Assembly (NCBI RefSeq): GCF_020520425.1
Contig: NC_079488.1
Coordinates: 89,943,285-90,007,284 of the forward strand
Direction: 5' to 3'
Length of the DNA stretch: 64,000 nt
DNA from: Spinacia oleracea
Lineage: Eukaryota; Streptophyta; Magnoliopsida; Caryophyllales; Amaranthaceae
Shown: piece by piece, positions 21,139-64,000 of the stretch
How positions within the stretch are numbered: the stretch's first letter is position 1
Layout of the letters: each line of letters opens with the position of its first letter
Program-made: the position numbers and the translations under genes
Notes under the pieces: generated by a model
What the model was told of the DNA's origin: nothing
Seen by the model: the letters and a program-made list of their open reading frames with translations, nothing else
Databases searched by the model: none

Positions 21139-21569
21139 ATTGGTGTACCCCCATGTGTCAAGCACATGTATTAAAAAAGCTTATATATAGGGTTTTAAAA
21201 TAAAGTTAAATAAAAAAATTCATTTCAAAACCCCACTTTCTCTCTCTCCAGAAAATTCTTCTCTCTAATATTCATATCACTCTAAACAATAAGAAAAAAA
21301 ATCTTCCAAATTTGTTTCTCTCCAAAAAATCTCCACTAAACTTCCAACAAGCTTTTTTTCTTCCGTTTCGTCGGCACAACAACACATAAAACACTAGAAT
21401 ATGCATCAAAATTGGAAAACGAACGTAGGTAACCAATTTTTTGAGATTTCAAGCAAAATTAAGAAAGAAACAATTGATGTTTGAGAGAAAATCAACTTGA
21501 ACAAGATTTTGGATGAAAAAATGCCAAAATTAAAGGTGAGTAAAACATTTTGTACTCATATTTTTTAAT

Positions 21570-23194
21570 GGAAAATTTGTTAAAAATAATCCAACATTTG
21601 GTCGGTCTTCTATTAATAGTACGACAAATCAATTAATTCTAAATAATCCAACGTTTAACTATCGTCTTCTAATAACAGATCAAGTTAGATGTTGACCTGA
21701 TGAAACAGGTGAACTTAATGACGTGACGGTTTATTGTCGTTGGTTGTTTAAACCCCCCTTCCCTGCTATTAAAATTCCTATCCCCTCCCCTGTTTCCCCT
21801 CCCTCTCCTCTGCTATTCTATTCACCCCCATTTTTTTCCTTCCTACTCTTTTATGTCCCCTTTTTAACATATTAAATGTCGGAGCTTTGGAAGGGCGCTC
21901 TCTGTACAAACAAGCACAAAAATCAACAGCATTGTATCTGAACTTTGATAGCTTCACGAACTCTTTTCTCATTGCGTGTGCTAATCTGAATCAAAGATCT
22001 ACGGGTTTTCAACTCCATGCCCTTGTTGTACAATTGGGATTTGAGTGTGATGTTTTTGTGCAGACTGCATTACTGAACATGTACATTGATTTTGGTTTGT
22101 TGAGTAATGCAAACAAGGTGTTTGACGAAATTCTTGAGAGACATTTGGTCACTTGGCATGTGATGTTCACTAGATTGGTTAAATGGGGTCACCTTGAGGA
22201 GGCTCTTGCTTTATTTAGGAACATGCCCATAAAGAATATTGTTTCTTGAACTGGTATGATTGATGGGTTCGCGGGAATGAAGAATTATCTTGGAGCATTT
22301 TCTCTGTTTCAGGAAATGATGATGGTTGGGGGCATTATGCCTACTGAAGCTACACTGTTAGCCGTTTCTACTGCTATCGTTGAGCTTGGGGATCTAAAAA
22401 TTGCCAATCATTACATGCCTTCGGCAAAAAAAGGTGGTTTGATTGCAAATGGTAGTCAGGTCACACACTGTTTCATTGATACTTATGCCAAATGTGGTTG
22501 CATTGTAAGTGCATTGAAGATATTCGAGGAGATATTTCCAAGTGGAAGAAATGTCGTGTCTTGGACATCGATCATATCCGATTTTGCTATGCACGGCATG
22601 GCCAAAGAAGTTGTGGACTTTCATGGTGATGTTGCAGTAGCCGAGTGTATACATAGGAAGATGCAGGATATGGAGAGAGCATATGGAGGAGATCATGTTT
22701 TGATGTCGAACATATTGGCATGTCAGCGTAAGTTCAATGAAGCTAAGAACATATTGACATTGATGGATAAAAGGCAGGTTCTGAAAACTCCAGGCCATAG
22801 TTCAGTTTAAGCTTATACGGAGTTGCTTCATGTGACACAGTAATCAACAAGCAGCACTGCCCATTTTGACTCCATTGATGAACCAAAGTAAAGAGGGGTT
22901 ATAGACATGAGGAGAGAGAAAGGCAACATGGAGGGGAAAGAGAAAATATATTTCCTGTAATTAAATTCAAAATAATAAGCCAAACTTGTAAAAAAACAAA
23001 CACGTGTCATATTTTACTCGTTGACCTGGAAAAAGAGACAATATTTGACTCGTTGACCTGTTTCAGCAGGTCACCGGTCATTTGACTTGTTATTAGAAAC
23101 GATAGTTAAACGTTGGATTATTTAGAATTAATTGATTTGTTGTACTGTTAATAGAAGACCACCAAAAGGTAGGATTGTTTTTAACAAATTTTCC
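21570..23194 (+). mobile_element. Mutator-like element carrying a PPR gene fragment (Pack-MULE)
   Basis: Long terminal inverted repeats of about 145 bp bound the element: GGAAAATTTGTTAAAAATAA at 21570 and its inverse ending at 23194. The 9-bp flanks ttttttaat and tttctaaat match at 7 of 9 positions, which fits a decayed Mutator-type duplication. The interior holds no transposase but does hold part of a pentatricopeptide repeat gene. Elements of this build are called Pack-MULEs. Related ends are at 4193 and 40624. Confidence 0.8.
21887..22810 (+). pseudogene. PPR protein (PLS type) fragment, broken
   Basis: PPR proteins bind organelle RNA; this copy is unlikely to do so. The frame shows several degenerate 35-residue repeats, with typical words such as NANKVFDEI, HLEEALALFRNMP, NVVSWTSIISDFAMHG and YAKCGCIVSALKIFEE, and an E-domain-like end near KTPGHSSV. 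Three faults are seen: there is no in-frame ATG at the start; the frame is cut by TGA at 22247-22249, where PPR proteins usually have Trp (IVSW), so a TGG to TGA change is likely; and after DFHG near 22626 the text jumps to the end region (AECIHRKMQDME), which suggests an internal deletion. The copy lacks introns and sits within Mutator-like ends. Confidence 0.85.
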
Positions 23195-24053: not shown

Positions 24054-24811
24054 TGATAGGCTAAAGTCGTATCACCAAATCAAAGATAAACCTAAATTCA
24101 CTAACCAAATAGTAAGGAAAGTCAGGATCTAATCCACAGGGAAACAACGTTCTTTCTACTACTAAAATAGAGGTCTAGACTATTGGTAACAAGTAAATGG
24201 GTTGGTTTGAGTAATTAAACTACGACAATAATTAAAAATGAGAAAATAAATAATAAAAGGCCTAGGATAAAGGTTCACCAATGAACAACATTCCGGGATG
24301 AAAATAATGATTAATAATCAATGAAATGATTAACTAGATTAGCATGCTCTCTCGAGTCGATATTAATCATAGAATTGGAAATAACAGGCTCTAGCAATTT
24401 ATTAATACCAATCCTTCCTATTGAAACTAGCCTCAACATCAAGTTGCAACTCTCGATTATTAACTCAATATTGCGAAACTATAACAATGTAGCCTGCGCA
24501 AATCTAATTGCATAGCAATTTAACCAATCAATAGGAAATTAAACAACATCACCAACAATCAACAATAATAAATCATCCCTTCATATTAGTTCATGGATCC
24601 CCAAAACCCTAGAATTAGACTACTCACACATAATTAAATTAAACCAAACTAGCATCATTAATGAAGGCATAATTAAAATTGAATAATAAAATAGGCCGGG
24701 ACCGAAGCAATACCGAAGTGAAGATCGAAGGATGAAATTGAAAACTTGAATTGAATAATAAAAGTAATTGAATAATAAGAGTTTGAGAGTAAAATAAAAC
24801 TAAGTAATAAC

Positions 24812-25333
24812 TGTTGTGGGCAAAATTACCGTGCCTTCGTGTACCAATGAGGATGTGACACCTGGCACGTATTGCGCCCCCTAAGCAGAAATCATACGAA
24901 GTCTACTCCGGGGCATGAGTATTAATCTAGGTATCTACAATGTATGTATTTAAGTGTGTATAAATGTACGTATAAAACCTATACCTGGAAAAGGGTTTAA
25001 TTAGTATGTATCCCAAGTGAATGACTAAGCACAATAGGCCCAAATAGCCCACTATTGCTAAAAGGGACCAGAGAATTGTAAGGAGAAAGGACACGTGTCC
25101 TCCTCCCATTCCCCAGCCAATCATGTAAGGGGAATATTAGGTCATTCCCACAAAAACCTAGTACTATAAATATTCCCACTTCCCTAGAAAAAGGGGTCAC
25201 AATCAATACATTCTAGAGCAATTGCTGCTCTGCCTTCTCTCTACTTTCTCTCTCTATAAAAATACAATCTTGTTTAATCTTTAAAAGTTACCAAGAAACC
25301 TCCAAGGTATCTCACCGGAAAACCCCACAAACA
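24812..25333 (+). repeat. 5' LTR
   Basis: The repeat starts TGTTGTGGGCAAAATTACCG and ends CCCCACAAACA. It is almost identical to 36871-37393. The differences are G/A within gcgcccc/gcacccc, T/C within gggttt/gggctt, and one extra A near the 3' end of the second copy. A TATA-like TATAAATA is at 25165-25172. Confidence 0.95.
25165..25172 (+). promoter_or_regulatory. TATA-like box in the 5' LTR
   Basis: TATAAATA lies about 160 bp before the LTR end and is a candidate core promoter for the gag-pol transcript. A second AT-rich word, CTATAAAAATAC, lies near 25254-25265. Confidence 0.55.
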
Positions 25334-25335
25334 TT

Positions 25336-25353
25336 TGGCGCCGTCTGTGGGGA
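25336..25353 (+). other. Primer binding site
   Basis: TGGCGCCGTCTGTGGGGA begins 2 nt after the 5' LTR. It resembles the site complementary to the 3' end of plant tRNA-Asp, TGGCGCCGTTGCCGGGGA, used by Athila and Tat elements, with changes in the middle. Confidence 0.8.
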
Positions 25354-25364
25354 GGTACGGTAAC

Positions 25365-28300
25365 ATGGAAGATCAACGACAGGACAACGATGCTGGGCGG
25401 CCTACGCGAGTAGAGCGGCCACCCCTCGAAAGAGAAATGCCGACTGAACATCATACGCCGGCCACAAGAATCACTGAAGATGCCGCGCGTATATTTGCGG
25501 CCGGGCACACCCCTCGTCACACTGCCGAGGTAGAGGTGCTCAGCGAGGAGGACGACCAGGCCAATCGCACCCCTCCTGGAGGACACCTGGATCCTCGGGT
25601 GGATACGGTAATAGAGGAGAACCCTGATATGCCTGTCTCTGTGGGTGCTCTTCGGGCTATTTTGGCTGAGTTCCAAGCTGATGTGGGAAAGACAGTTAAT
25701 GCTGAGGTACAGAAGAGTATGCTGATCTACACCACTGCTGTGGCTGCAAATCATGAGAGGCCGGCAAGCAATAGGCCAACACTTTCTTTGCGCCCCCCAA
25801 ATGTCTGGACCAGGCTGACAGGCGAGGACCTAAGGAGACAGCCGCCAACAAGTCAGCCCAATCAGGCAATGTCTTACCTACCACGCCGAATGCCACGGCG
25901 GCTGATCGGAGAAACGTCCCGAGGACGTGAGCAGCCACGCGCAGAGCAGTTGCCTGACTCTGAGTCTGAACTTTCTGACACTGGTTCAACCCCCGTCATG
26001 CCGGATAGACCTCTCCCTCATCCAACTTATACGCATCTGAGCCAGGCGCGTCCAGGGGCCACCCGTCCAACCCGTCAAACTCGCGGACGCGAGTCCTCCC
26101 AGCGGCTACCCTACTCAAGGCGTCAAGACCCTGTATGTCACATTCAGGAGGGGGTGTCCAACATGGCCCTAGGGCACACCACTCCTTTTGCAGACTCCAT
26201 CATGAGAGCCCCGAGGGAACCCAAAGTCAAGCCGCCCAACATTGATGCTTACGATGGTACCACAGATCCGGACATGCACCTCTTGGTTTACCGGCATCAC
26301 ATGTATGTCCAAGGAACAACTGACTCAACCTGGTGTAAGTATTTTCCGGGCACACTCAAAGGAGTAGCCTCTAAGTGGTTCGAGAGACTTCCAGCCGGAA
26401 CTATTCGCTCTTTTTTGGAGTTCGAGCTATTGTTCTCTACTCGGTTCATGGCTCACAAGGAAGAGAAGAAGACGAGCATGCATCTGAGTAGGATTCAGCA
26501 AGGGAAGGACGAGTCCCTGAGGAGTTATGTGAAGAGATTCAATCTAGAGGCAGGGCAAATTCCGGATTTGCCAGATGGTGTTGCATTCGATAACTTCATT
26601 CGAGGGCTTAAAAAGGGCTCTTTCAAGTTTGATCTGGTAAAGAAAAGCGTCCGAACAATGGCAGAAGTGCTGGATGAGGCCGAGGCCTTCATTCATGCAA
26701 CAGAGATTTGCAGCGTCCCGAAAGACCCCAGAGGAAGTGATACCGCTGAGCTAGCGGCAAAAAAGGAGAAATTCGAAAAGAAGAACCGGCCTAACGGGAC
26801 GTGGGCTATTGCAAAAGAGTCAGACAGGGCCCCCGGAGCGGCAGGTCAGAAACGGCCCAGAACTTATGATCGGGAGCGATTCGAGTATAACACAAACATG
26901 TACACAATTCTGATGGACGTCGGGTCCAAATATGACATTGATCGTCCATTTCCCATGAAGTCGCCACCAGAAAGTAGGGACCCCAAACTGTACTGTCACT
27001 TTCACAGTGACATTGGGCATGACACCAATGAATGTAAGAGCTTGAAAAGGGCATTGGATGGCCTAGCCCCCAAGGGGTTCTTAAAAAGTTATATCAGCAG
27101 GAACACGGGAGGTTCTGGCAAACCCTTCTACAAGAAAAACAAATCCCCTCCCTCGGAGGAAGATGGGAATCGTACCGACCCAGAGTGCGTGGCAGTCATC
27201 TCAGGAGGATTGGCCGCCGGCGGGCCGACCATGCGGGGCCAGAAGGATTATGCCAAGCGATTGGGGCAAGTGATGCTGTCCGGCAAGGCCACAGTTGACC
27301 CGTTTCCAAAAGTTGAAATCGGCGAGGCCGACCGTGGGAAAATCTCCACCCCGCATGATGATCCTTTGGTAATTGAGTTAAAAGTTGCTAACCTAAGGGT
27401 TAGGCGTATTTTGGTTGATACAGGAAGTTCGTCGGACATAATTAGTCTAGAGTGCTTGAATCGGCTGCAACATGATCCCTCAAAGATTGAGAAAATCCAC
27501 TATCCCATTATAGGCTTCGGAGGTAGTGTCATCCACCCAGTCGGCATAATTACCCTTCCTCTGAGGATGGGAAATAAAAAGGAATCTCGGCAAATGGATG
27601 TCCGTTTTCTCATAGTGAAAGATCTGACGGCATATAACATCATCTTGGGGCATCCCACGTTGAACAGGGCAAAGGCTGTCATTGTGACTCATCTGATGCT
27701 TCTTAAGTTCATTTGTGACGATGGGAGCGTCAGCACTATACATGGTGACCAGCAACAAGCTAGAGATTGCTACCTAACCACCTTGAGTCCAGAAGCATGG
27801 GGGACGGGTGAAGAGAAAGGGACATCGAGCAACAAACGAAAATGTGGCGACACGCAACCCAAGGTCGTCAAAGAAACATTAACTATCTCAGCAGGGCACA
27901 TGGAAGAGAGACGTCCAGAGCCTGTTGGGGCCCATTTCAATGTGGTATTAAACACAGATAAACCTGACAGAGTAGTGCCCATCGGGATTTCTCCTGACGA
28001 CCCGCTGGCGGCAGAGTTGGTCCACCTTTTGAGAGAATTTGAAGATATCTTTGCTTTCACAGTGGACGAAATGCCGGGTATTGACCCTGCTGTAGCCGTC
28101 CATAAGCTGAATGTGGACCCAAACTTCAAACCGGTTCGTCAGAAGAAAAGGAACCATGGGGAAGATAGAAATCAGGCGGCAGCCGCGGAAATACAAAAGT
28201 TGATGGAGGCTGGGTTCGTCAGGCCTAGTCAGTACCCCGATTGGGTTGCTAACGTGGTCCTCGTCAAAAAACCTAATGGTACCTGGAGAATGTGTGTTGA

Positions 28301-29516
28301 CTACACCAACCTCAATAAGGCATGTCCAAAGGACAGCTTCCCACTGCCCAAGATTGACCGGCTCGTCGACTCTACAGCAGGGCATGCTATGATGAGCTTT
28401 ATGGATGCCTACTTAGGGTTTCACCAGATTCCGTTGTGGCCTGACGACCAGGAAAAAACGTCATTTGTTACTGAACAAGGCCTTTACTGCTACAAGGTGA
28501 TGCCGTTTGGTTTAAAGAATGCACCGGCCACCTTTCAGCGTCTTATTAGCACTGTGTTCATCAAGCAGCTCGGCAGGAATATTGAAGCTTACATTGACGA
28601 TATGATCGTAAAAAGTAAGCTGAGGGCGGCGCACATAACTGATCTCAGGGAGACATTTGAGACTATTCGAGCTTACAACATGAGGTTGAACCCTAAGAAG
28701 TGTGTGTTCGGGGTGACGGCAGGCAAATTCTTAGGTTTCTTGATTGATGAAAGAGGAATTGAAGCCAACCCAGACAAAATCCAGGCAGTAATTGATATGA
28801 GCTCACCAAAGACAGTGAAGGAGGTCCAGCGGCTCACAGGTTGCTTGGCCGCCCTGGGCAGATTCCTTTCCAGGGCTGGAGACAAGTGCCACTACTTTTT
28901 CAGGTCTGTCAAAAAGAAGGCCAAGTTTGAATGGTCGGACGAGGCCGAGGCGGCATTGGTCAGATTAAAGGAGCACTTGCATACCTTGCCTCGTCTTGTT
29001 AGCCCCTTGCTAGGAGAGACTTTGTACATGTATCTCGCTGTGTCCGAGCACTCGTTGAGTGCCGTTCTACTGACAGAAAGGGAGGGAATACAGATGCCGG
29101 TATATTTTGTCAGTCATGTTCTTCAAAATGCTGAAGTTAGATACCCTACAGTGGAAAAGTTTGGCTTAGCTCTATTCATGGCCAGCAAAAAGCTCCGTCC
29201 TTATTTCTTAGCTCACAAAATAGTGGTCTACACAGATCAACCGCTCAAATTGCCCTTCACAAAGCTGGAGGCGTCAGGACGAATGCTAAATTGGGCAATA
29301 GAGCTGAACGCCTTTGATATCACCTATGAGCCGAGGAAAGCTGTCAAGGGGCAGGCATGTGCCGACTTTATTGTTGAAATGACGAGGCCAAACTTTGCCA
29401 AGAATACAAATACGGTGTGGACAGTGTATGTAGACGGCTCATCCACACAGAATGGATGTGGAGCAGGGATAATCTGTCACTCCCCAGAAGGAGATACTTT
29501 TGAGTATGCTATGTGA
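25365..29516 (+). CDS. Ty3/gypsy Gag-protease-reverse transcriptase-RNase H (first part of polyprotein)
   Basis: The first ATG after the primer site is at 25365; the frame upstream is the primer site itself. Gag domain words (PNIDAYDGTTDPDMHL, WFERLPAGTI, FSTRFMAHK) lie at about 26230-26700. A zinc-finger-like CHFHSDIGHDTNEC is near 26994. The aspartic protease active site VDTGSS is near 27415. Reverse transcriptase has FMDAYLGFHQIPL and the catalytic YIDDMI near 28591. RNase H follows (VVYTDQPLK). A second, archaeal-type RNase H starts at WTVYVDGSS near 29419 and is cut by TGA at 29514-29516. The same frame runs on without a shift into integrase, so one base change breaks a single long gag-pol frame. 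CGA to TGA, the usual decay of a methylated CpG, is a likely cause; this is inferred from the common residue there. Confidence 0.92.
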   Translation: MEDQRQDNDAGRPTRVERPPLEREMPTEHHTPATRITEDAARIFAAGHTPRHTAEVEVLSEEDDQANRTPPGGHLDPRVDTVIEENPDMPVSVGALRAILAEFQADVGKTVNAEVQKSMLIYTTAVAANHERPASNRPTLSLRPPNVWTRLTGEDLRRQPPTSQPNQAMSYLPRRMPRRLIGETSRGREQPRAEQLPDSESELSDTGSTPVMPDRPLPHPTYTHLSQARPGATRPTRQTRGRESSQRLPYSRRQDPVCHIQEGVSNMALGHTTPFADSIMRAPREPKVKPPNIDAYDGTTDPDMHLLVYRHHMYVQGTTDSTWCKYFPGTLKGVASKWFERLPAGTIRSFLEFELLFSTRFMAHKEEKKTSMHLSRIQQGKDESLRSYVKRFNLEAGQIPDLPDGVAFDNFIRGLKKGSFKFDLVKKSVRTMAEVLDEAEAFIHATEICSVPKDPRGSDTAELAAKKEKFEKKNRPNGTWAIAKESDRAPGAAGQKRPRTYDRERFEYNTNMYTILMDVGSKYDIDRPFPMKSPPESRDPKLYCHFHSDIGHDTNECKSLKRALDGLAPKGFLKSYISRNTGGSGKPFYKKNKSPPSEEDGNRTDPECVAVISGGLAAGGPTMRGQKDYAKRLGQVMLSGKATVDPFPKVEIGEADRGKISTPHDDPLVIELKVANLRVRRILVDTGSSSDIISLECLNRLQHDPSKIEKIHYPIIGFGGSVIHPVGIITLPLRMGNKKESRQMDVRFLIVKDLTAYNIILGHPTLNRAKAVIVTHLMLLKFICDDGSVSTIHGDQQQARDCYLTTLSPEAWGTGEEKGTSSNKRKCGDTQPKVVKETLTISAGHMEERRPEPVGAHFNVVLNTDKPDRVVPIGISPDDPLAAELVHLLREFEDIFAFTVDEMPGIDPAVAVHKLNVDPNFKPVRQKKRNHGEDRNQAAAAEIQKLMEAGFVRPSQYPDWVANVVLVKKPNGTWRMCVDYTNLNKACPKDSFPLPKIDRLVDSTAGHAMMSFMDAYLGFHQIPLWPDDQEKTSFVTEQGLYCYKVMPFGLKNAPATFQRLISTVFIKQLGRNIEAYIDDMIVKSKLRAAHITDLRETFETIRAYNMRLNPKKCVFGVTAGKFLGFLIDERGIEANPDKIQAVIDMSSPKTVKEVQRLTGCLAALGRFLSRAGDKCHYFFRSVKKKAKFEWSDEAEAALVRLKEHLHTLPRLVSPLLGETLYMYLAVSEHSLSAVLLTEREGIQMPVYFVSHVLQNAEVRYPTVEKFGLALFMASKKLRPYFLAHKIVVYTDQPLKLPFTKLEASGRMLNWAIELNAFDITYEPRKAVKGQACADFIVEMTRPNFAKNTNTVWTVYVDGSSTQNGCGAGIICHSPEGDTFEYAM

Positions 29517-29576: not shown

Positions 29577-31127
29577 ATGTGTAAGGCGGCAGGCGCCGAG
29601 GATATTGTAGCACTATCTGACTCCCAACTGATTGTGAGCCAAGTTAATGGGACCTACGAAGCTAGGGATCCGACTATGGTCAAATACATGCAGGCCATCC
29701 ATCAGGAAGTAGAGCCACTGAAAAGTTTTGAAGTAAGGCAAGTCCCTCGCTCGGAAAATAACCAAGCTGATGCCCTGTCAAAGTTGGCAAGTTCAGCGTC
29801 TTGTGATACCCCTCGGCACGTGTTTTGGGAGGTAAAAGAGCACAAAAGTGTTGAGCAAATGGAGGTGGAAACTCTTGATAGAACGTCCACATGGATGGAT
29901 GACATAGTGAACTCCAAAATGAATGGAGTCTTGCCCGAAGACTCAAGGGAAGCGGCAAAACTTCAAAAGAAATGTTCTTGGTTTGAAATGTGGAACGGCA
30001 CCCTCTATAAAAAGGCCTACTCCCGTCCTTTGTTAAGATGTGTAACACCTGAGAAGGGGCAGGAAATTCTAGAAGACCTTCATCAGGGGTTGTGCAGCTC
30101 GCATATTGGTGGAAGGGCTTTGGATGAAAAGGCACTTCGAACCGGCTATTACTGGCCGACTCTTAAGGAGGACGCAATCTCACTGGTCAAGAAGTCTGAC
30201 AAATGCCAGCGCTTTTCTCACCTAATACACCAACCAGCACGAGTTCTAACGCCCATTACAAGCCCAATTCCATTCGCTAAATGGGGGATGGATCTTCTAG
30301 GCCCATTTACGACCGCACCAGGAGGAAGGCGTTATGTCATCGTTGCTGTAGATTACTTCACCAAATGGGTGGAGGCAGAAGCGCTCAAAAACATAAAAAC
30401 TACTGATGTGAGAGCATTCATTTGGAAGAACATCATGACTCGCTTTGGGATTCCACAGGCTATCGTCTTTGATAATGGGCCCCAGTTTGAGACGCCTAAG
30501 CTGAAAGAGTGGCTGGCAGATCACGGTATACACACTTGTTTTGCATCAGTCGGACGACCCCAAGCCAATGGTCAGGTTGAGGCGTTCAACAAAATTATCT
30601 CCGAAGGAATGAAAAAGAAGCTTGACGAAGCCAAAGGTCTGTGGGATGATGAGCTGCCAAATGTCTTATGGTCCATCCGCACTACGGCTAAGAATTCAAC
30701 CGGTGAAACACCCTTCTTGCTAGCCTATGGCGCCGAGGCTGTCCTGCCCATAGAAATGTGTGAACCGACGTTGAGAGTCATGCTGTACGACGAAAATGCT
30801 AACTGGGAGACAATGAAAGCAGCCTTGGACTTTCTGCCCGAGGTTAGAGGAAATGCAGCGCTCAGACAACAGCTGTACAAGATAAGGATGGCAAGAGAAT
30901 ACAACAAGAGAGTCTCTAATAGAGTGCTCAAAGTGGGAGATTTTGTCCTCAGGAAAATGGAGTCCACAGGACGAGCAAATGAACAGGGTAAGCTGACGCC
31001 CACTTGGGAGGGACCTTACGAGATCTATGATGAGGTTAGAGATGGAACCTACCGCATTCAAGACATGCAAGGCCGGCCTATTTTGCGCACTTGGAATGCC
31101 GACAATCTCAAGAAGTATTTCTTCTAG
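29577..31127 (+). CDS. Ty3/gypsy RNase H end and integrase (second part of polyprotein)
   Basis: This is the same frame as the preceding polyprotein, after the TGA at 29514; the coding text resumes at 29517 and 29577 is only the first ATG. It completes the second RNase H (ALSDSQLIVSQVNG), then has the integrase: an HHCC-like region with HIGGRALDEKALRTGYYWP and KKSDKCQRF, and the catalytic core with WGMDLLGPF, VFDNGPQFE and NGQVEAFNK, which supply the D, D and E. In KKSDKC the first Cys of the usual CxxC is Ser, so the zinc site looks damaged. The end (TWNADNLKKYFF) is usual for this lineage, and no chromodomain follows. Expression from its own ATG is unlikely; it was probably made as part of Gag-Pol. 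Confidence 0.9.
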   Translation: MCKAAGAEDIVALSDSQLIVSQVNGTYEARDPTMVKYMQAIHQEVEPLKSFEVRQVPRSENNQADALSKLASSASCDTPRHVFWEVKEHKSVEQMEVETLDRTSTWMDDIVNSKMNGVLPEDSREAAKLQKKCSWFEMWNGTLYKKAYSRPLLRCVTPEKGQEILEDLHQGLCSSHIGGRALDEKALRTGYYWPTLKEDAISLVKKSDKCQRFSHLIHQPARVLTPITSPIPFAKWGMDLLGPFTTAPGGRRYVIVAVDYFTKWVEAEALKNIKTTDVRAFIWKNIMTRFGIPQAIVFDNGPQFETPKLKEWLADHGIHTCFASVGRPQANGQVEAFNKIISEGMKKKLDEAKGLWDDELPNVLWSIRTTAKNSTGETPFLLAYGAEAVLPIEMCEPTLRVMLYDENANWETMKAALDFLPEVRGNAALRQQLYKIRMAREYNKRVSNRVLKVGDFVLRKMESTGRANEQGKLTPTWEGPYEIYDEVRDGTYRIQDMQGRPILRTWNADNLKKYFF

Positions 31128-31530
31128 ATATGTGCTAAGCCTTGTCTTACTTACCACGATCCATTGCCCAAGGGGCGGCCTCCTATGGTCATAGTAGGGT
31201 AGTAATTACTTTTGTAACCGGCTAAATTCGCCTTGCAAAGTTATAAATAATACTACTCTATTTTGTCTCACAATATTTATTTCTCGAACAATGAATATAA
31301 AAATATACACTCCAATGCATAACCAAAGCCTAATTGTATGACGGCCTGAGAAGTGGCCCAGATTAACAAAAACTCTCGGCAAGACTAATTGTTTGAAGCC
31401 TAAGAAGTGGCCCAGATTAGCACCAAGTTGTAGGCTGATCACCTATCCAACTCCCTTCCCAGTATAGCAAGCCGCTGGCCGACCAGTACGGCATAGTAAG
31501 TGCCAGCGGCACAAATAAACCTTAAATCAT

Positions 31531-32570
31531 AGGTTGTTTGCTCAAAAGCTCAGCGGCATGAACAACTTTGAAACATAGGTTGTTTGCTCAAAAGCTCAGC
31601 GGCATGAACAACTTTGAAACATAGGTTGTTTGCTCAAAAGCTCAGAGGCATGAACAACTTTGAAACATAGGTTGTTTGCTCAAAGGCTCAGCGGCATGAA
31701 CAACGTTGAAACAAAAGGGCGGCGGCACGAATATTTGGCCGTCCAGTCCATTTGACGAGCATGTCTAGCGGCAATCATACCTATTGATTGACTTGCGTCA
31801 ATCAATAACGTTATAGACATGCTCGCCAAAGAAAGAGACGACCCCAGTAGTGCCTAGCGGATGATCGTTTGCCTGCGGCACCAATAATTTGAAACAGGTT
31901 GTTTGCTGAAAAGTGCGGCGGCATGCACGTTTGGCCGACCAGTCCATTTGACGAGCATGTCTAGCGGCAATCATACCTATTGATTGACTTGCGTCAATCA
32001 ATATCGTTATAGACACGCTCGCCAAAAAAAAAAAAAAAAAAAAAAACGACGACCCCAGTAGTGCCTAGCGGATGATCGTTTGCCTGCGGCACCAATAATT
32101 TGAAACAGGTTGTTTGCTGAAAAGTGCGGCGGCATGCACATTTGGCCGACCAGTCCATTTGACGAGCATGTCTAGCGGCAATCATACCTATTGATTGACT
32201 TGCGTCAATCAATATCGTTATAGACACGCTCGCAAAAAAAAAAAAAAAAAAAACGACGACCACAGTGAGGCCTAGCACATGCTCAGTTGCCAGCGGCACC
32301 AACAACTTCGAAACAAAGGTTGTTCGCTCAAAAGTTCAGCGGCACGATTAACTTCGAAACAAGGGTTGTTTGCTCAGAAGTTCGGCGGCACGAATATTTG
32401 GCCGTCCAGTCCATTTGACGAGCATGTCTAGCGGCAATCATACCTATTGATTGACTCGCGTCAATCAATAACGTTATAGACATACTCGCCAAAGAAAGAG
32501 ACGACCATAGTAGTGCCTAGCGCATGCTCAGTTGCCTGCGGCACCAACGTGCTTAGTGTACACTCAGTTG
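31531..32570. repeat. Two-level tandem repeats after pol
   Basis: From 31531 a 46-bp unit (aggttgtttgctcaaaag and on) repeats about four times, at 31531, 31577, 31623 and 31669. Then a longer unit of about 200-260 bp repeats about four times, each copy starting near ggccgtccagtcc or ggccgaccagtcc (31738, 31934, 32143, 32399). Each longer unit has a nested hairpin: outer arms CGAGCATGTCTA and TAGACATGCTCG (with point changes in some copies), inner arms ATTGATTGAC and GTCAATCAAT. Two units include poly(A) runs near 32025 and 32234. The region lies between the convergent ends of pol (31127) and the antisense gene (32856). Confidence 0.9.
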
Positions 32571-32855: not shown

Positions 32856-35800
32856 TCAGGGAGCGGCCGCATCGTCCTCGTCATCGGAGGATACAAACTC
32901 AGGGGGCGGCTGACCAAGACGTTCAGCAGCCAACACAGCGGCACTATGTTCCATTCGCCGCTGGAACCACGCAAGATCATACTCTGACATGTGGCTCTCC
33001 CAGGCGTGCTTAACAGCGTCCTTGGTCGCTTGTTCCCCCTGATCATAGGATTCCAGGAGACGCTCACGCAAGGTGCGAACTTGCGATCTGGCCGTCTCTA
33101 GCTCCCCACGAAGATGCTCGGCCTCCTCAGCCGCCTCTTTGACCTGAGGGTACTCCCGCAACTGGTCCTGAAGCGTCCGTATTTCCGCCGCCGCTGTCTT
33201 GGCCTCCTCGACCATTGCCACCATGTCTTTATCCTGCGCCAAGATCTTCTTAAGCAGCTCGGCCTTGTCAGATCTCAACGCAGCTACCTCCTTTGCTTGA
33301 AGGTCTATGGTCGTCTGCATCTGCAGGCGGACCTCTTCAATGGATTTGAACGCATAGTCGCCATGGTGGGTGGACTCAGCCACCTGAGCTTTGAGCTCCT
33401 CAGCAGTGCGGGTCTTCCAACTCTTGCAGAACTCCATGCGGCAGAACAACTGCAAAAGGAGCTACATGTTAGTAAATGACTAAAAGAGAAGACAAGTACA
33501 AGCAAGTTGGAAATAGACTTACGTCGAGAAGAGTGGCCTGGATCGCACCAAACTGGGCGTCAGTCTTGCGGCCAGGAAGAGAAGCAACATACTCTGCGGG
33601 GACGGCCTTAAAAACCTTGCGGCATATAGCCACCCTATCCTTTGACGAATAGTGGGGAGTAGCAGGTACGTTCTCGTCCTCAGCAGCAGCTGCATTCTTC
33701 CCTTTGTCTTTGGCTATAGGAAAAACAACGGCCTTAGGATGACGCGGAGAGTAAGAAGAACTGCCAGAGGAGGCTCGATACGTCTGAACGACGTTCGAAT
33801 AATACTTACCGCCCGAAGACCTAGCTCGGCGGGCCACCTCCGCAGGTATCTGAGAGCGGACGTCGGCCGGGATTCCAGAAAGAGGGTCCTCCAGCTCGTC
33901 CGGATGCCCACCGGACCTCGATTTGGACACCAAGTCCACCACCAGAGACGGCTTGTCCACGCCCATCTCTTCGTCATCAGGGCATCCCCCCTCAGCAACC
34001 TTCGACTCGTCTTTCTTCACGAGACGGCGGGGTAGGGGTTTTGGCTTCTTGAAGGTACTCGGGGTCTCCGAGCCAGCTGGCACAACTCTCTTCTTCAGCT
34101 GGGACAGAGTCGTCCCCTTCTTTTTCCCTGACGCCCTAGCCGCGTCCTTAGCTTGCTAAAAAAGAAAGTAAAGGACAGTCAAATATTAAGCCTCGTCATC
34201 AATCACAAGTCACTCACCAGATAGTGGCTCGTCATTAAAAAGGACGCCCATCTTAAAAATGACGAGGCGTACCTCATCAATCACAAGTCACTCACCAGAA
34301 AAGTGGCTCGTCATTAAAAAGGACGCCCGTCTCAAAATGACGAGGCGTACCTTATCAATGACAAGTCACTCACAGAATAGTGGCTCGTCATTAAAAAGGA
34401 CGCCCGTCTCAGAATGACGAGGCGTACCTTATCAATCACAAGTCACTCACATAAAAGTGGCTCGTCATTAAAAAGGACGCCCGTCTCAAAATGACGAGGC
34501 GTACCTTATCAATGACAAGTCACTCACAGAATAGTGGCTCGTCATTAAAAAGGATGCCCGTCTCAGAATGACGAGGCGTACCTTATCAATCACAAGTCAC
34601 ACGAAGAACGGTTGCTCGTCATTATAAAAGACGCCCGTCTCAAAAATGACGAGGCGTACCTTATCAATCACAAGTCACTAAATAGTGGCTCGTCATTAAA
34701 AAAGGACGCCCGTCTCCAAAATGACGAGGCGTACCTTATCAATCACAAGTCACTAAATAGTGGCTCGTCATTAAAAAGACGCCCGTCTCCAAAATGGCGA
34801 GGCGTACCTTATCAATCACAAGTCACTAAATAGTGGCTCGTCATTTAAAAGGGACGCCCGTCTCAAAAATGACGAGGCGTACCTTATCAAGTGCAAGAAC
34901 TCATAGAAAAATGGCTCGTCATTAAAAAGGACGCCCGTCTAGAAAATGACGAGGCGTACCCTATCAACCACGAGTCACTTGTAAAGAGAAACACTAACTA
35001 AGGGGCCCGTCATTAAAAAGTGACGAGCACTAAAAAGACGTCCAATGTGGACACTGGACGAGGGAAGCTTAACTTGCAAAAACAACCTAAGAGAATACTC
35101 ACCTTCTCCTCCAACTCGGCCTTGGCTTTCTGCATTTTGGCCTCATAAATGTCTGCCATCCAATCGGTCATATCGCCCTTCCCGGTATCCGCCGCCGACA
35201 GCTTGCTCATTCCTTCCTCTGTGAACAAAAGAAATCCAAAGTTAGAAAGATAAATAAGACCAAGGCAGAGCGGCACATAAATTGGCATACAACCTCGAGT
35301 CATGGAATATCCTAAGCCTACGGCCGCTAGAAAGGCCTCGTTCCGAAACTGGCTAATGTGCGGCAACCATTCGGCCGGCACATGGAAACTCTTATCCACT
35401 GTTAAGTGGTAAGTGTTGGCCCTGAACAGGACCATTATCTGATCCCACTCTTCGGCAGTAAGGGGTGGAAGGGGCTCGTCACGATCCATGTAGTTGGCGT
35501 TGCAGTTCCAGCGGCTCATCCGCTCATACATCTCCTGGTCGTCCGTGTAAAACACGACCCACCTCTTTCTCCACATATGCCACTTGCTGAGCTTGCCGAC
35601 CACTGTCTAGTAGGTACCACGGCTGCTCAGATTAAACCACCCTTTGGCGGCGCTGGGGGAACGAGAGAGGGAGACCAGATGCAGAAAAGCGTTGAAGGAC
35701 GGCTCCACGTCGTTCAGCGCACATTTGGCAATATAGCCAAAGATATCCGCCCATGAGTTGGGGGTCAGTTGGGCCACCCCAATGTTAAAACCATCTAACA

Positions 35801-36317
35801 CCTCCACAACGAAGGGGTGTGGAGGGAATCTCATGCCGAGTTTGATGGATGCGGCATACACAGGGAATTCTCCCTCGGCAAGCAGGCTGACGGTCGAGTC
35901 CAGACCGGCCGGCACGCGCATTTGATACCCTTCCCCCACACAGAGGTCATCCCTCATCTTGGCTCCGTGCCTGTCTAGCCACCGCATCCAGCCCACGTCT
36001 GGGTGAATCTCTGACGGAAGCAATTGGGCCTCCTCCCGTCCTCTGGGCCTAACAAGCTGGGGAGCAGCCTCTTGCTCCCCGGCGGCCGTTGACAATGGAG
36101 CGACGCTTGGCTCCCCCACTGCCTGGCTTGCTGTACCCTCCGACGAGCTTGCCGCCTGCTCCCCCGCCTCGACATACTCGTCGATCTCTTGAAAGAGTTC
36201 GGCAAATTCTTCGTCGACTGCCGAGGCAGTGGAAGAATATCTCTCCCTAGGGGGTGTCGATGCTTCTTCCCGCAAGCGCAGGCGCGTAGGATCTGCCGTT
36301 TGCTTGGTTCTAGCCAT
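32856..36317 (-). CDS. Spliced antisense gene of the Tat-type element; H3-like N-terminus
   Basis: Four exons on the strand opposite to gag-pol: 36317-35294, 35218-35103, 34155-33523 and 33449-32856. The three introns have GT-AG ends and the exons total 2367 nt, exactly 789 codons. The product starts MARTKQTA, identical to the start of histone H3, then has an acidic Ser/Glu-rich part. A domain around MRFPPHPFVVEVLDGFN, QLTPNSWADIFGY and GWFNLSS follows, as in plant proteins labelled putative gypsy-type transposon (Pfam Transposase_28, from memory). The C-terminal half of exon 4 is a Glu/Lys/Ala-rich coiled coil ending SSDDEDDAAAP. One in-frame TAG at 35609-35607 breaks exon 1. The frame is also open above 36317, but that part is Phe-rich and contains three copies of a 21-bp repeat, so I take it as 5' UTR. 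Function is unknown. Confidence 0.85.
34200..34980. repeat. Tandem repeat of about 77 bp in intron 2 of the antisense gene
   Basis: About ten copies of a 75-79-bp unit are present, with gtggctcgtcattaaaaa starting near 34224, 34303, 34380, 34457 and on. Each unit can form a hairpin between CTCGTCATT and AATGACGAG. The array takes up most of the 947-nt intron (35102-34156). It is removed from the antisense message by splicing but stays in the genomic RNA of the element. Confidence 0.9.
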
Positions 36318-36543
36318 GCCTTCTGCATAGTGAACGAAGCACGGCTTAGGAGTGACCAACAATGAAGAAAAAGACGTGATTGGACGTCCGCCCCGTAAAA
36401 AGATGAACGGCGGAAAAATCTTAAATAAAACCTTCAAACCCCTACTAAGAGGTCGGCCGCTAACAAAGAGAAAAGTGACGAGAGGATAACAAAAACAAGA
36501 AAGAAAGGCGAAAACTAACCTTGAAAGATCTGCGAAGTACTCG

Positions 36544-36605
36544 GTGAAGAACAGGATGAGTTTCGCGAAGAACAGGATGAGTTTCGCGAAGAACAGGATG
36601 AGTTT
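36544..36605. repeat. Three copies of a 21-bp repeat
   Basis: The unit gaagaacaggatgagtttcgc is repeated in tandem about three times upstream of the antisense start, with a fourth, changed copy (aaaaggatgagtctcg) after it. Confidence 0.85.
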
Positions 36606-36728
36606 GACTAGGAAAAGGATGAGTCTCGTGGTGGCCGGAAATCGCCTGATGGTGGTGGGAATACGCCGGAAATCGCCTATGAGAGCTCTGTGAAAACGAA
36701 ATGTAAAAAAATGAAATTTACCCCCCTC

Positions 36729-36738
36729 TATATATATA
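36729..36738 (-). promoter_or_regulatory. TATA-like box facing the antisense gene
   Basis: TATATATATA in a GC-rich setting lies about 410 bp before the antisense ATG at 36317 and outside the 3' LTR. It is the best candidate for an antisense core promoter. The second element has a TATA box in the matching place (58528-58535). Confidence 0.5.
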
Positions 36739-36858: not shown

Positions 36859-36870
36859 TTGAGGGGCAAA
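36859..36870 (+). other. Polypurine tract
   Basis: The purine-rich TTGAGGGGCAAA lies directly before the 3' LTR, where plus-strand DNA synthesis is primed. Confidence 0.7.
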
Positions 36871-37393
36871 TGTTGTGGGCAAAATTACCGTGCCTTCGTG
36901 TACCAATGAGGATGTGACACCTGGCACGTATTGCACCCCCTAAGCAGAAATCATACGAAGTCTACTCCGGGGCATGAGTATTAATCTAGGTATCTACAAT
37001 GTATGTATTTAAGTGTGTATAAATGTACGTATAAAACCTATACCTGGAAAAGGGCTTAATTAGTATGTATCCCAAGTGAATGACTAAGCACAATAGGCCC
37101 AAATAGCCCACTATTGCTAAAAGGGACCAGAGAATTGTAAGGAGAAAGGACACGTGTCCTCCTCCCATTCCCCAGCCAATCATGTAAGGGGAATATTAGG
37201 TCATTCCCACAAAAACCTAGTACTATAAATATTCCCACTTCCCTAGAAAAAGGGGTCACAATCAATACATTCTAGAGCAATTGCTGCTCTGCCTTCTCTC
37301 TACTTTCTCTCTCTATAAAAATACAATCTTGTTTAATCTTTAAAAGTTACCAAGAAACCTCCAAGGTATCTCACCGGAAAAACCCCACAAACA
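36871..37393 (+). repeat. 3' LTR
   Basis: This is the second copy of the LTR, with two substitutions and one 1-bp indel against 24812-25333. It ends CCCCACAAACA and is followed by the duplicated target ATAAC. Confidence 0.95.
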
Positions 37394-48695: not shown

Positions 48696-51173
48696 CTACA
48701 GTTGGGATATAGCATTCATATTAGTGGTTGTATTCTGAGTAGCTGATGCATAACTAGTAGTTTGTGTTGCGTATTGAGTAGATGAGAATTCGCTGAAAAA
48801 CATAGGACTATCAGTATTACCCCCAAACATTTGGATAGATCTGGGGATTGTAGGCATATCAAAATCTAAAAGTCCTTCAAGAACTTGCACAACCTGCCCC
48901 ATTGATGGTCTCTGACTTTCTTCATCTTGGATACACCAGCATGCAAGTTTGCAAATTCTCATCACTTCTTCTTTTTCAGCTTCTCCTTCTAACCGAGGGT
49001 CTAGAATGCTTAAAACATCTTCTCCCTCAGTTATTTTGGTTAAAGCCCAAGTTGGGAAGAAGTCCAACCTCGCTTCGTTTGTTATATGAATGTTTCTTCT
49101 TCCTGAAACAATCTCAAACAGCATCATCCCATAGCTATAAACATCGGCTTTTGCTGTTATTGCGTCTCCTGATATCCATTCTGGTGCTAAATAACCCCTT
49201 GTACCTCTGATTGTTGTTAAAACACGACTGAATTCCCTTCCTACAAGCTTTGCTAACCCAAAATCTGCAACTTTTGGACAAAACTCAGCATCCAAAAGTA
49301 TATTTTCTGGCTTAATATCACAATGTATGATACAATCCCTGCATTTTTCATGTAGATAAGCTAATCCCCTTGCTGTTCCTGTTGCTATTTGATGCCTCAC
49401 AATCCAGCTTAAAATCTGTGTGTTTTCTCTTTTGAATAGATGAGTGTTTAGTGATCCATTTGGCATATATTCATAAACCAACAACCTCTCAGACCCTTCT
49501 GAACAAAACCCACGAAGACGAACAAGATTAACGTGCTGAATCATCCCAATTGTACTTACCTCTGCTCTGAATTGCTTCTCCCCTTGAGCGTGCTTCATTC
49601 TTTCCAGTTTCTTTGCAGCTATAACCGTTGAGTCTGGTAAAATTCCTTTGAAAACAGATCCAAAACCCCCTCCTCCAAGTTTCTGAGAGAAGTTTTTCGT
49701 GGCAGATTGCAGATCTCTATACGCAAATCGTGCCAATGAGTGCTGCATATTTTTTGCAGCTTTGAGAAACCGCCTTTTCTGTCTGTAATAAATAACAAAA
49801 ACAAGCCCAAAAACAGCTACTACTAACCCCATGCCTAAACCTACTGTAACACCAATGACTAATTTTACATTTCCACTACTTGTTTGGACATCTACATCTG
49901 ATGCTGCAAGCCTAATATGAAGAGTTTTGCCACTATCGTCAGCTAGCTGTCTCATGTTCAAGAGGTCAACAAACCAAACAAAACAACCATTATCATCGAA
50001 AGCATATGCAGTGCAAGAGCAATTCCTTAAACATGCAGATTCACATTCTCCTACAGTAGTTGAAGTAGAGACAAAATGTGGATGTTCTGGTAATACTTTA
50101 CTAGGACTTACTGAGAACTTATCTCCGTTTTTTCCGCCCTCACATATCAACTTGTTCTTCCTAGTACACCCACCAGAGTAATCATTCAAATTCCACTCCA
50201 TTACTGAGTTTGGTACAAAACCTTGCAAACAATGACAATATGGAAGAGATGATTGATTACAAGTAGCAAAAGTACCACAATATGAATAAACTTCACACTG
50301 CTGTCCAGGCTGTGACCAAAATAAAACCCATTGTTTGGAACTTTCCAACCACGTTAGCTGCTTAAGCTGTCCTGAAACATCCATGACTAACCTTGTTACA
50401 ATTGAAGGGTTATGAACAGAATAAGTGATATAACTCTCATTCTCATTATCAACATAACTAAAGCTATAAAGCTGAGTTTTCAGAAACCTTAGCTCTGGTA
50501 TTAGGCTAAATATCTGTTGATCAGGAACCCATAGGCCACTACTCCAATATTGCTCGGTTTTGTTCCACAACATAATGAACTGACTAGCATTAAGATCACG
50601 CTCTATATTAAAAAGACCTGTTCCAGGATCTTGTAAATTCTTCCAAGAAGTAAGAATTTGGGTTGAATTTGTGACTTTGCTAAATCCTAATTTACCATCA
50701 GGCATAAGTGTATCGGTTGGATGCTCAAAACTCTGCCAAAGGGGAGAACTTGAACTAGACTTTTCCCTCAAAACAAGATTCCCATCATTTAGGAGGACAA
50801 CTTCAACAGGTTCAGACCTATTGTAGTTCAAGTTTGTGGACCAAATTGGTGTTTTAGACACATTTGTAACAAGAACTAAATTACCATCACTCGATATTCT
50901 TAGCTTCGATACATACTTGTCAGAAACAGGCTTATCTCTATTAGCTATCCAAATTACAGCATTTCCAGGAATTTTCTTATACCATATGGCTATGTAGTAG
51001 TTGCTAGTGTTACCTGGTTTGTAGAAGCCTAGCTCAAACAGCCCTGTCGCAGAAACTATTGTTTGGTCTCCAGTGAGATATTCATTTGCAGCTACACTGT
51101 CAGCTCCAAAACATGAAGGAATTTGGAAACACAAAACAGAACACAAAACTGGCAATATGTTTTTGACATTCAT
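48696..51173 (-). CDS. G-type lectin S-receptor-like serine/threonine-protein kinase
   Basis: A single-exon frame of 825 aa, full length for the family and like Arabidopsis At2g19130. A signal peptide is at 1-23 and the B-lectin domain at about 30-150. An S-locus glycoprotein/EGF-like part contains the cysteines around 293-315, and a PAN domain lies at about 344-420 (CESACLRNCSCTAYAF). The membrane segment is at 437-462. The kinase domain has the P-loop LGGGGFGSV at 499-507, the Lys of AAKKL at 521, HCDIKPENILL at 617-627, DFG at 637-639 and APE at 663-665. HCD in place of HRD makes it a non-RD kinase, a class often linked to immune receptors. The extracellular part has many NxS/T sites. The Ser/Thr/Gln-rich tail may be a phosphorylation region. 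Its ligand is unknown. No break was seen, so it may be a working plasma-membrane receptor. Confidence 0.95.
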   Translation of the reverse strand: MNVKNILPVLCSVLCFQIPSCFGADSVAANEYLTGDQTIVSATGLFELGFYKPGNTSNYYIAIWYKKIPGNAVIWIANRDKPVSDKYVSKLRISSDGNLVLVTNVSKTPIWSTNLNYNRSEPVEVVLLNDGNLVLREKSSSSSPLWQSFEHPTDTLMPDGKLGFSKVTNSTQILTSWKNLQDPGTGLFNIERDLNASQFIMLWNKTEQYWSSGLWVPDQQIFSLIPELRFLKTQLYSFSYVDNENESYITYSVHNPSIVTRLVMDVSGQLKQLTWLESSKQWVLFWSQPGQQCEVYSYCGTFATCNQSSLPYCHCLQGFVPNSVMEWNLNDYSGGCTRKNKLICEGGKNGDKFSVSPSKVLPEHPHFVSTSTTVGECESACLRNCSCTAYAFDDNGCFVWFVDLLNMRQLADDSGKTLHIRLAASDVDVQTSSGNVKLVIGVTVGLGMGLVVAVFGLVFVIYYRQKRRFLKAAKNMQHSLARFAYRDLQSATKNFSQKLGGGGFGSVFKGILPDSTVIAAKKLERMKHAQGEKQFRAEVSTIGMIQHVNLVRLRGFCSEGSERLLVYEYMPNGSLNTHLFKRENTQILSWIVRHQIATGTARGLAYLHEKCRDCIIHCDIKPENILLDAEFCPKVADFGLAKLVGREFSRVLTTIRGTRGYLAPEWISGDAITAKADVYSYGMMLFEIVSGRRNIHITNEARLDFFPTWALTKITEGEDVLSILDPRLEGEAEKEEVMRICKLACWCIQDEESQRPSMGQVVQVLEGLLDFDMPTIPRSIQMFGGNTDSPMFFSEFSSTQYATQTTSYASATQNTTTNMNAISQL

Positions 51174-57934: not shown

Positions 57935-58371
57935 TGTTCCGGTGTTGTAGTGAGTGAAACAATGGGCTTCGAATGAAGACCCTTTCGTGTGTGATGAAGA
58001 TCTTGCTAGCTCGAATGTGTCGTGTCCAAATCAACCTGCACAATAAACAAGTTACTAGCCTCGGGGGTGTTTCCGAGGAAAGCCCCTCCGATGCCTAAGT
58101 AAGAACAATGCTCGGATTCTAGAGAGAGAAGTTCTCTAGAAGAGTAGTCTTAAGGCGTGAAATGGACGTACCTTGGTAAGTGAGCCCTGGCGGCTTATTT
58201 ATAGTGTTTGTACAATAAATCCCCTTAGGCTATTTATTGCAAGTGGGCCTTGGGCCTTGGTTGGCGGCTGAATAGCCTTTTGGACTGTAGTGGGTTTGAT
58301 GTTGTTGTTGTGAGCCCTTGGGCTTTGGACTTAATGGCCAAATTGATATTCGATTGGGAGCCCAAACAACA
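57935..58371 (-). repeat. 3' LTR of the second element
   Basis: On the minus strand it starts TGTTGTTTGGGCTCCC at 58371 and probably ends CCGGAACA at 57935. A TATA-like CTATAAATAAG lies near 58204-58194 on that strand. The inner border is clear from the polypurine tract; the outer border is a best guess. Confidence 0.75.
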
Positions 58372-58384
58372 TGCCCCCCAGACC
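58372..58384 (-). other. Polypurine tract of the second element
   Basis: On the minus strand GTCTGGGGGGCA lies directly before the LTR start. Confidence 0.7.
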
Positions 58385-58527
58385 CGGCCCATTTAGAATT
58401 AAATGGGTGGGTTTCCAGCTGTGAGAAGTCCAAAGGTTCTCTCTTTTTTCGAGGAGAAGACGATGCGAGTTCGTGGATGAATGACAAGTGTGGAGAGCGG
58501 AAGTTGGGTGGTTTTTTGGACGTGGCC

Positions 58528-58535
58528 TATAAATA
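58528..58535 (+). promoter_or_regulatory. TATA box of the antisense gene, second element
   Basis: TATAAATA in a GC-rich setting (gacgtggcctataaatacc), followed by a pyrimidine-rich stretch, lies about 250 bp before the antisense ATG at 58777. It is outside the LTR and faces the antisense gene. Confidence 0.65.
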
Positions 58536-58776
58536 CCGCATCTTTTCCCTAATTTCAAACTTTATTCACTCAAACGTTTTCCATATCTTCAGAATTCCGG
58601 CGATTTCTTTGGGTGTTTTCTTCATATCTTTGCGTATTCATCGCGGATTTGCTTCGGGACTTTACTTCGTTCGCTTCATCGGTGTTTTACGCTTCCGGAA
58701 AGGTAATTTGTTTTCCGTTTTTGCTTCCTTCTTTTCCTACTCCTTTCTGTGTATCTTCGGCACTCTCTGTTTCGCC

Positions 58777-61700: not shown

Positions 61701-62075
61701 GCTGCTCTTGAACGGATCCCCGTGCTTGAACACGAAGCTGATGAGCTTAAGGCCAAGGTTCGTCAGCTCGAAGCGGAGAAAGCCTTGTTGTACACCGCCG
61801 ACCAGTGTCGAGACCAATACTGGGAGGGGATCCTTGGTGCTCGTCGGATGTTTGCCAAGCACATGCCTGACTTCAAGTGGACTGAGCATGTGCCTCAATG
61901 GCTCGAGGCCGAGGATAACTTGGTGGAATGCCAGGCTGACAGAGACGATGCTTCCGGGGAGCTCGAAGAAGCTGCTAAGGCGCAGCAAGCTCGGAAGGTC
62001 GCCTCGGAAGGTGATACCACTGCCGGCGCCTCTTCGCGGTCTGCTCCTCAGGGACGCGTTGGTGATGTCCCTTAG
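58777..62075 (+). CDS. Spliced antisense gene of the second Tat-type element, frameshifted
   Basis: Five exons opposite to pol: 58777-59761, 59864-60099, 60215-60286, 60365-61266 and 61344-62075, with GT-AG introns. The product would be about 975 aa. It starts MAGGRWKKKSD, with no H3-like tail, then has an acidic Ser/Asp/Glu part. The shared domain follows (LRFPLDPFIARVLEEYN, QLTPKSMRHIVGY, GWWAINN), and then VILAAAGLSRIYDRG at the first intron. Exon 4 opens with a Lys-rich, nuclear-signal-like stretch (KKLKKRKASEKETSPKKH). Exon 5 is a long coiled coil. Exon 4 has 902 nt where 903 are needed, and the frame changes at the G run near 61216-61218, which fits a 1-bp deletion. The first and last introns match those of the other element in place and phase (1 and 0). 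Function unknown. Confidence 0.82.
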
Positions 62076-63335: not shown

Positions 63336-64000
63336 TCATACAAAATATTTCTTGAGAACATCGGCATTCCAATGGTTCTTCAAGATGGTTCCATCTAACT
63401 GTTTAAGCATAAAGGTGCCAGTCCTCTTTTCAGAGTGGATGATGTATGGTCCTTCCCATGTTGCCGAGAGTTTTCCGTGGATCTTTCCCTTCTGAACCGC
63501 AGCAGCATTTCTGAGCACTAGATCACCGATCTTTAGAGGTCTGGCATTGACTCTTCGGTTGTAGTGTTTGCTGACTCTTTGCTGATAGGCTGCGTTGAGA
63601 GTTCTGGCTTCGTCCCGAGCCTCATCTAGTAGATCCAAGGATTCGGACAGAAGTTGATTGTTGCTTTGCCCATGGATTCCATCATACTTGTTGTATGCTT
63701 GGACCCTTAAGCTTTCTGTTCTGATCTCTACAGGGATGACAGCTTCGGAACCGTAAACCAAGTGGAAGGGTGTTTGTCCTATGGCTTCTTTCTCGTTGGT
63801 CCGAAGGGACCAGAGTGTCCCAGGGAGCTCCTCTAGCCATTTGCTTTTTTCGTTCTCAACCCTCTTCTTGAGTGCATTGAGGATGAGTTTGTTTGCGGCT
63901 TCGGCTTGGCCATTTCTCTGAGGATGGCACACTGCTGAGTAGGCGAGGTGGATACCGAACTGTTTACACCATCTTTGCAGTGGTGTGTTGTCGAATTGCT
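63336..64000 (-). CDS. Ty3/gypsy integrase C-terminal part (partial)
   Basis: The frame is open to the window edge on the minus strand. It shows the end of the integrase core (QFGIHLAYSAVCHPQRNGQ, with the catalytic Glu in GQAEAANK), then WSLRTNEKEAIGQTPFHLVY and GSEAVIPVEI. The C-terminal fold (PLKIGDLVLRN, ATWEGPYIIH) follows, ending HWNADVLKKYFV. The matching part of the first element has the same order but clearly different sequence, so the two belong to different families of one lineage. No stop is seen in this part. No chromodomain follows. Confidence 0.9.
   Translation of the reverse strand, partial: QFDNTPLQRWCKQFGIHLAYSAVCHPQRNGQAEAANKLILNALKKRVENEKSKWLEELPGTLWSLRTNEKEAIGQTPFHLVYGSEAVIPVEIRTESLRVQAYNKYDGIHGQSNNQLLSESLDLLDEARDEARTLNAAYQQRVSKHYNRRVNARPLKIGDLVLRNAAAVQKGKIHGKLSATWEGPYIIHSEKRTGTFMLKQLDGTILKNHWNADVLKKYFV

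Follow-up and report, generated by a model that had tools for sequence, protein, structure and literature searches.

SNAG-domain proteins are H3-tail mimics bound by LSD1, and their carriers are host transcription factors with a looser similarity to H3. EZHIP, a mammalian host protein, is an H3 K27M-like mimic that acts on a chromatin enzyme. Among mobile elements, the VANDAL elements are DNA transposons. In Arabidopsis, binding of the VANC proteins of VANDAL elements to noncoding tandem-repeat regions has been described to induce loss of silent marks (PMC10398659). Of the Retand clusters with recent activity in a survey of flowering plants, 97% were described to have antisense TRP28 ORFs, with a function given as unknown, and the TRP28 protein is predicted to bind DNA and was nuclear in the maize Grande case (PMC11963269).

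Here we analyzed a window of 64,000 nucleotides from Spinacia oleracea (assembly GCF_020520425.1, contig NC_079488.1, positions 89,943,285 to 90,007,284 of the forward strand), which contains an element with an antisense TRP28 gene that begins with the codons for MARTKQTA. Like SNAG-domain proteins, the antisense TRP28 protein would present a free N-terminus similar to the H3 tail, but its match to H3 covers seven identical residues and it is encoded by a retrotransposon. EZHIP likewise has an H3-mimicking segment, although this corresponds to the K27 region and not to the N-terminal end. VANC and the antisense TRP28 protein are both encoded by elements, and Retand elements also have family-specific repeats near their accessory gene; however, anti-silencing was shown for VANC whereas it is proposed here, and in the VANC paper (PMC10398659) we noted no H3-like N-terminus, while its main text contains "H3K4" zero times. 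In the Retand survey (PMC11963269) we noted no N-terminal motif on TRP28 proteins, and its main text contains "histone" zero times. We found no report in the open-access literature of an H3-like start on such a retrotransposon protein.

The element and its antisense gene

The window element is a Ty3/gypsy retrotransposon of about 12.6 kb and of Retand type. On one strand, gag, reverse transcriptase, RNase H and integrase are encoded between the LTRs, and an antisense ORF with a PF04195 match (E 1.9e-11, over the cut-off) lies between pol and the 3′ LTR. The lineage name is given by this layout, which is that described for Retand elements. The two LTRs, of about 525 bp each, were 99.24% identical over 526 alignment columns, and ATAAC was seen by eye to flank both ends of the element. 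The features are as follows.

24809..25333, plus strand, 5′ LTR (aligned span; TG start at 24812 by eye)
25335..29516, plus strand, gag, reverse transcriptase and RNase H reading frame
29577..31127, plus strand, end of RNase H and integrase reading frame
31528..32394, tandem arrays separating pol from the antisense gene, with units of 46 bp and 211 bp
32856..33455, minus strand, last antisense coding exon, coiled-coil-like by eye, matching P0003/P0006
33469..34083, minus strand, later antisense coding exon(s), basic and Lys/Arg/Pro-rich, NLS-like by eye, matching P0002/P0006
34198..34979, tandem array of a 77-bp unit, about 10 copies, between antisense coding segments
35013..35603, minus strand, antisense frame continued past the stop, matching spinach proteins P0002/P0003 by eye
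35607..36317, minus strand, antisense coding exon 1 up to the in-frame TAG
36294..36317, minus strand, first eight codons, MARTKQTA (residues 2-8 = histone H3 1-7)
36323..36519, minus strand, predicted 5′ UTR intron, AAG/GTTAGT ... CTATGCAG
36546-36628, 21-bp tandem repeat, 4 copies, in the predicted 5′ UTR exon of the antisense gene
36731..36738, minus strand, TATA box upstream of the antisense gene
36868..37393, plus strand, 3′ LTR (aligned span; TG start at 36871 by eye)

In common with the Retand elements described in PMC11963269, the window element has a long region between pol and the 3′ LTR that carries an antisense TRP28 ORF and tandem repeats. It is larger than the Spinacia oleracea Retand cluster given there (LTR 425, internal region 10,719 bp).

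The protein encoded by exon 1 has PF04195 (Transposase_28/TRP28) as its sole domain match (E up to 0.1), at residues 153-216 counted from the Ala after Met; no histone domain was found among these matches. In the window copy the in-frame TAG falls at residue 236 of P0001, or 237 counting Met, and there are copies in which the antisense frame is open.

The first-pass annotation, made from the sequence of this window, had proposed a minus-strand protein start at 36294-36317, and the surrounding sequence agrees with that assignment. If the transcript is spliced as predicted, from the donor AAG/GTTAGT at 36519 to the acceptor CTATGCAG, which ends at 36323, no ATG precedes the one at 36317; the sole other ATG within 36900-36294, at 36328, lies inside the predicted intron. 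An AG 5-6 bases ahead of the ATG was present in most of the loci looked at from families 1-5 (family 1 being that of the window copy; the others are described below), with exceptions in L079, L087 and L090, where the CAG before the ATG is lost. Donor-like sites were located 117-229 bases upstream in L070, L078, L076, L079, L102, L100, L014 and L008, the last with a second site at 290, and a loose scan gave none in L034, L085 or the fetched family 5 stretches.

The start differs between public spinach gene models. P0006 has it at the motif, as M-ARTKQKA, whereas P0004 starts upstream and reads through the motif, and in P0002 (42 member sequences) and P0003 the start lies downstream. The starts of P0002, P0003 and P0004 count against the mimicry explanation given below. 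No relative of P0006 was found among PDB sequences (single match, E 0.99).

Histone H3 identity and conservation of the start

The minus-strand codons at 36317-36294 are ATG GCT AGA ACC AAG CAA ACG GCA. Residues 2-8 of MARTKQTA are therefore exactly H3 1-7, as first proposed, and the H3 sequence ends there: from residue 8 on the protein continues DPTRLRLR, without Lys9, in line with the initial reading that the match stops and that no histone fold follows. With no H3 sequence past residue 7, we ruled out that the antisense protein is histone H3 itself.

MARTKQTA is encoded at 353 places in the 894-Mb assembly, 17 of them with a CGN Arg codon and 336 with an AGR Arg codon (reversed-pattern controls gave 0 in both searches). 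All 17 CGN-type places were read; 13 were H3 or H3-like and the remaining four (L008, L079, L085 and L087) were not H3 and start MARTKQTAN, with a TRP28 match adjoining L079 only. The first 30 that were read of the 336 AGR-type places all continue like the window antisense gene, and L098, among the few read afterwards, is a true H3 gene. We also observed six dispersed H3-derived fragments (L091-L096), which begin MARTKHTAKN or MARTKNTAKS, have very similar 5′ flanks and run into a stop or unrelated sequence soon after.

L091, C1:32400600-32401850
L092, C1:32673400-32674700
L093, C1:127240200-127241500
L094, C3:38084020-38085300
L095, C3:126038500-126039800
L096, C3:133569600-133571050

These were considered as a further element family and rejected, as they are H3-derived and have no TRP28 match in the stretches read.

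To avoid choosing copies by the motif, family 1 was collected with an upstream anchor that left the codons free (controls 1 and 1). MARTK was kept in 320 of the 328 anchored places; one of the other eight is unrelated, and ARTK losses may exist among the remaining seven. Among the 100 anchored places listed, 99 were related, of which 90 encode ARTKQTA and nine have an amino-acid change by eye, in every case within residues 5-7 (QTA). The MARTKQTA start is not a one-copy accident, and the concern that other copies might lack it does not apply to this family. Young copies look alike in any case, however, so that the 320 of 328 is by itself no proof of selection.

The start is also common to more distant proteins. 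In all, an ARTK start is shared by four spinach families, one of them known from a single decayed locus, and by P0005, a protein from other public data that is 32% identical and has MARTKQTA followed by an unalignable linker (a search of IMG/VR found no relative of P0005). The suggestion that the motif might be specific to the window family is thus contradicted by three more spinach families and P0005. Family 2, 40% identical to P0001, was reached through a search with P0005 (102 places). MARTK was in frame in 8 of 10 fetched loci, the other two being one without an ATG and one frameshifted; its usual start is MARTKKTA, with codons that differ from those of the window copy. The reported P0005 match left the motif uncovered in 7 of these 10 loci; in L070 it was reported from P0005 residue 50 on, with the motif covered. 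Family 3 has MARTKQTAN in other codons (L079/L103), and family 4 has MARTKETAN, again in other codons, at one decayed locus (L102). Families 3 and 4, as well as subfamilies 1b and 1c of the window family, were found by motif pattern searches (one round, with controls 1 and 0), so that their agreement in the motif is biased, while agreement in codons 9-16 is unbiased. The conserved N-terminus is identical to H3 1-7 in several families and sits on a retrotransposon accessory protein. The start is old, being common to TRP28 families that are only 32-40% identical, and its amino acids are kept in several.

We then compared codons between families, a check for purifying selection on the first codons that the first-pass annotation had called for. 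Between the window copy and family 2 (L070), codons 2-8 differ by five silent changes and one amino-acid change, and dN was 0.067 in codons 2-8, compared with 0.59 for codons 9-16, 0.89 for the linker and 0.49 for the TRP28 region. With the lowest dN of the four regions, the first residues are the best kept part of the protein between families 1 and 2. In comparisons of the window copy with five 1b/1c loci, synonymous change was high or saturated, and dN was 0 in codons 2-8 (biased by the motif), 0 to 0.065 in codons 9-16 and 0.19-0.55 in the linker. In the TRP28 region dN/dS was 0.05-0.12 in the seven of nine pairs for which it could be computed (0.08-0.12 in four of the five 1b/1c pairs), and these low values indicate that selection maintains the protein. 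When codon changes were counted across 17 representatives, the minimum was 15 silent and 2 amino-acid changes (p 2.7e-7); we weigh this count lightly because most of the representatives were found through the motif.

TRP28 families with a changed start

The motif is not universal in TRP28 proteins. Sampling that was independent of the motif, in which 8 loci were fetched among the 150 PF04195 matches listed, gave five loci of an abundant sister family (family 5) with MARIRQTAN or close variants, two with MASDELAG and one without a clear start. An anchored search with codons 2-6 left free retrieved 366 places of family 5 (control 0). Among the 100 of these that were listed, 51 encode ARIR, 25 ARTK, 8 ARIK and 16 other forms, and Arg2 is kept in 96. 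Family 5 has Ile at the T3 position, mostly Arg at the K4 position and a variable position 5, in a pattern A-R-x-[KR]-Q-T-A. The ARIK forms suggest that T3I may have preceded K4R in this family. Loci L108-L112 of family 5 represent natural variants at the H3 T3 and K4 positions.

The motif is absent in two more distant TRP28 families (6 and 7). As the first-pass annotation had noted, it is absent from a second TRP28 gene within the window.

58318-62075, plus strand, second TRP28 gene; an integrase-like frame (by eye) lies on the other strand at 63336-63932

The start of this gene, at 58777, is MAGGRWKKKS. By eye it has sites that resemble a TATA box and a donor, but no acceptor lies directly ahead of the ATG. 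P0009, an outside relative, shows no motif and may be cut short. In a small TRP28 tree several deep nodes had support below 0.65, and we did not root the motif on it. Taken with the ARIR family, the families without the motif indicate that an exact H3 match belongs to some families and that one abundant family has left it.

A possible H3-tail mimic and its alternatives

Our tentative preference, which falls just short of probable, is that the conserved start acts as an H3K4-tail mimic on a probably nuclear TRP28 accessory protein and helps the element to escape silencing. We thus confirm the first-pass observation and support its interpretation in part. The antisense protein would be translated from the ATG of MARTKQTA, and since Ala is in second place, Met would be expected to be removed. 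Provided that the end stays unacetylated, this would expose a free A-R-T-K-Q-T-A end equal to H3 1-7 (N-terminal peptide ARTKQTADPTRLRLR), carried on a Glu/Ser/Ala-rich linker that looks disordered. The TRP28 domain, which is conserved, comes next, and then a tail that is basic and coiled-coil-like. In the nucleus, the element protein could offer an unmodified H3K4-like tail to readers of H3 1-4. The best candidates for such readers may be ZMP, SHH1 (K4me0), NERD (with a PHD of the ZMP type) and RDM15 (K4me1). The ZMP PHD has been reported to bind H3 1-18 with a preference for K4me0, SHH1 to bind K9me2 and K4me0, and the NERD PHD is grouped with that of ZMP (PMC9699677), while RDM15 is reported to read K4me1 (PMC8184781). 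Competition for Pol IV/RdDM, or its repositioning, at the element's own DNA might then lead to escape from silencing. A decoy or recruiter at the element's own DNA would be consistent with the predicted DNA binding of TRP28 proteins, the nuclear Grande case and the H3-like end.

A broader version, which we consider doubtful, is that in a clade of plant LTR retrotransposons the antisense protein displays a genuine H3 1-7 tail, decoying the H3K4me0 readers that direct Pol IV and RNA-directed DNA methylation, and that sister families replaced K4 by an Arg, which cannot undergo lysine methylation, in an arms race with host silencing. If this were true, retrotransposons would imitate the very histone residues that are read by plant silencing proteins, and the ARTK, ARIK and ARIR versions would serve as natural built-in controls. 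The conserved histone-tail start provides a concrete and cheaply testable idea of what some antisense TRP28 proteins may touch.

Alternatively, the first residues may form a conserved short block with another job, such as a basic end that contacts nucleic acid or protein, or a stability signal, with the H3 identity reflecting convergence on a short basic sequence. We regard this as rather unlikely, although two observations speak for it and against a simple H3K4 mimic: conservation in family 1 extends through DPTRLRLR to residue 16, beyond the H3 match, and the large sister family keeps A-R-x-[KR]-Q-T-A with Ile3, Arg4 and a variable position 5. However, family 1, family 3 and P0005 match H3 1-7 at all seven residues, with a chance of about 5e-9 per given N-terminus (using assumed residue frequencies), and it is codons 2-8 that have the lowest dN between families 1 and 2.

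The start could also descend from an ancient capture of a histone H3.3 gene, with its 5′ UTR intron and start codon, and persist by descent or by constraint on translation start without any mimicry. The L007 H3 gene appears by eye to have an acceptor directly before its ATG (TTCTTATAG/ATGG), and the dispersed fragments described above indicate that H3-derived pieces occur in the genome. Nevertheless, capture seems improbable to us, as the families read have no H3 sequence past residue 7 and no upstream similarity by eye, and codons differ silently with the residues unchanged, both in the comparison with family 2 and in the motif-biased count of 17 representatives. Least probable of all is a chance match without special constraint: the motif is short, plants have many element proteins, family 5 has changed the motif and two distant families lack it, but it is kept with silent codon changes at 32-40% overall identity (P0005 and family 2) and in nearly all anchored family 1 places, even though young copies alone would give the latter.

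Apart from the TRP28 genes, two other open frames were observed in the window. An 825-residue frame on the minus strand (48696-51173) is probably a host gene and by eye looks like a G-type lectin receptor kinase. A 184-residue frame on the plus strand (22256-22810) resembles, by eye, a piece of a pentatricopeptide-repeat protein; an inverted repeat pair of 89% identity, at 21562/23099, encloses it.
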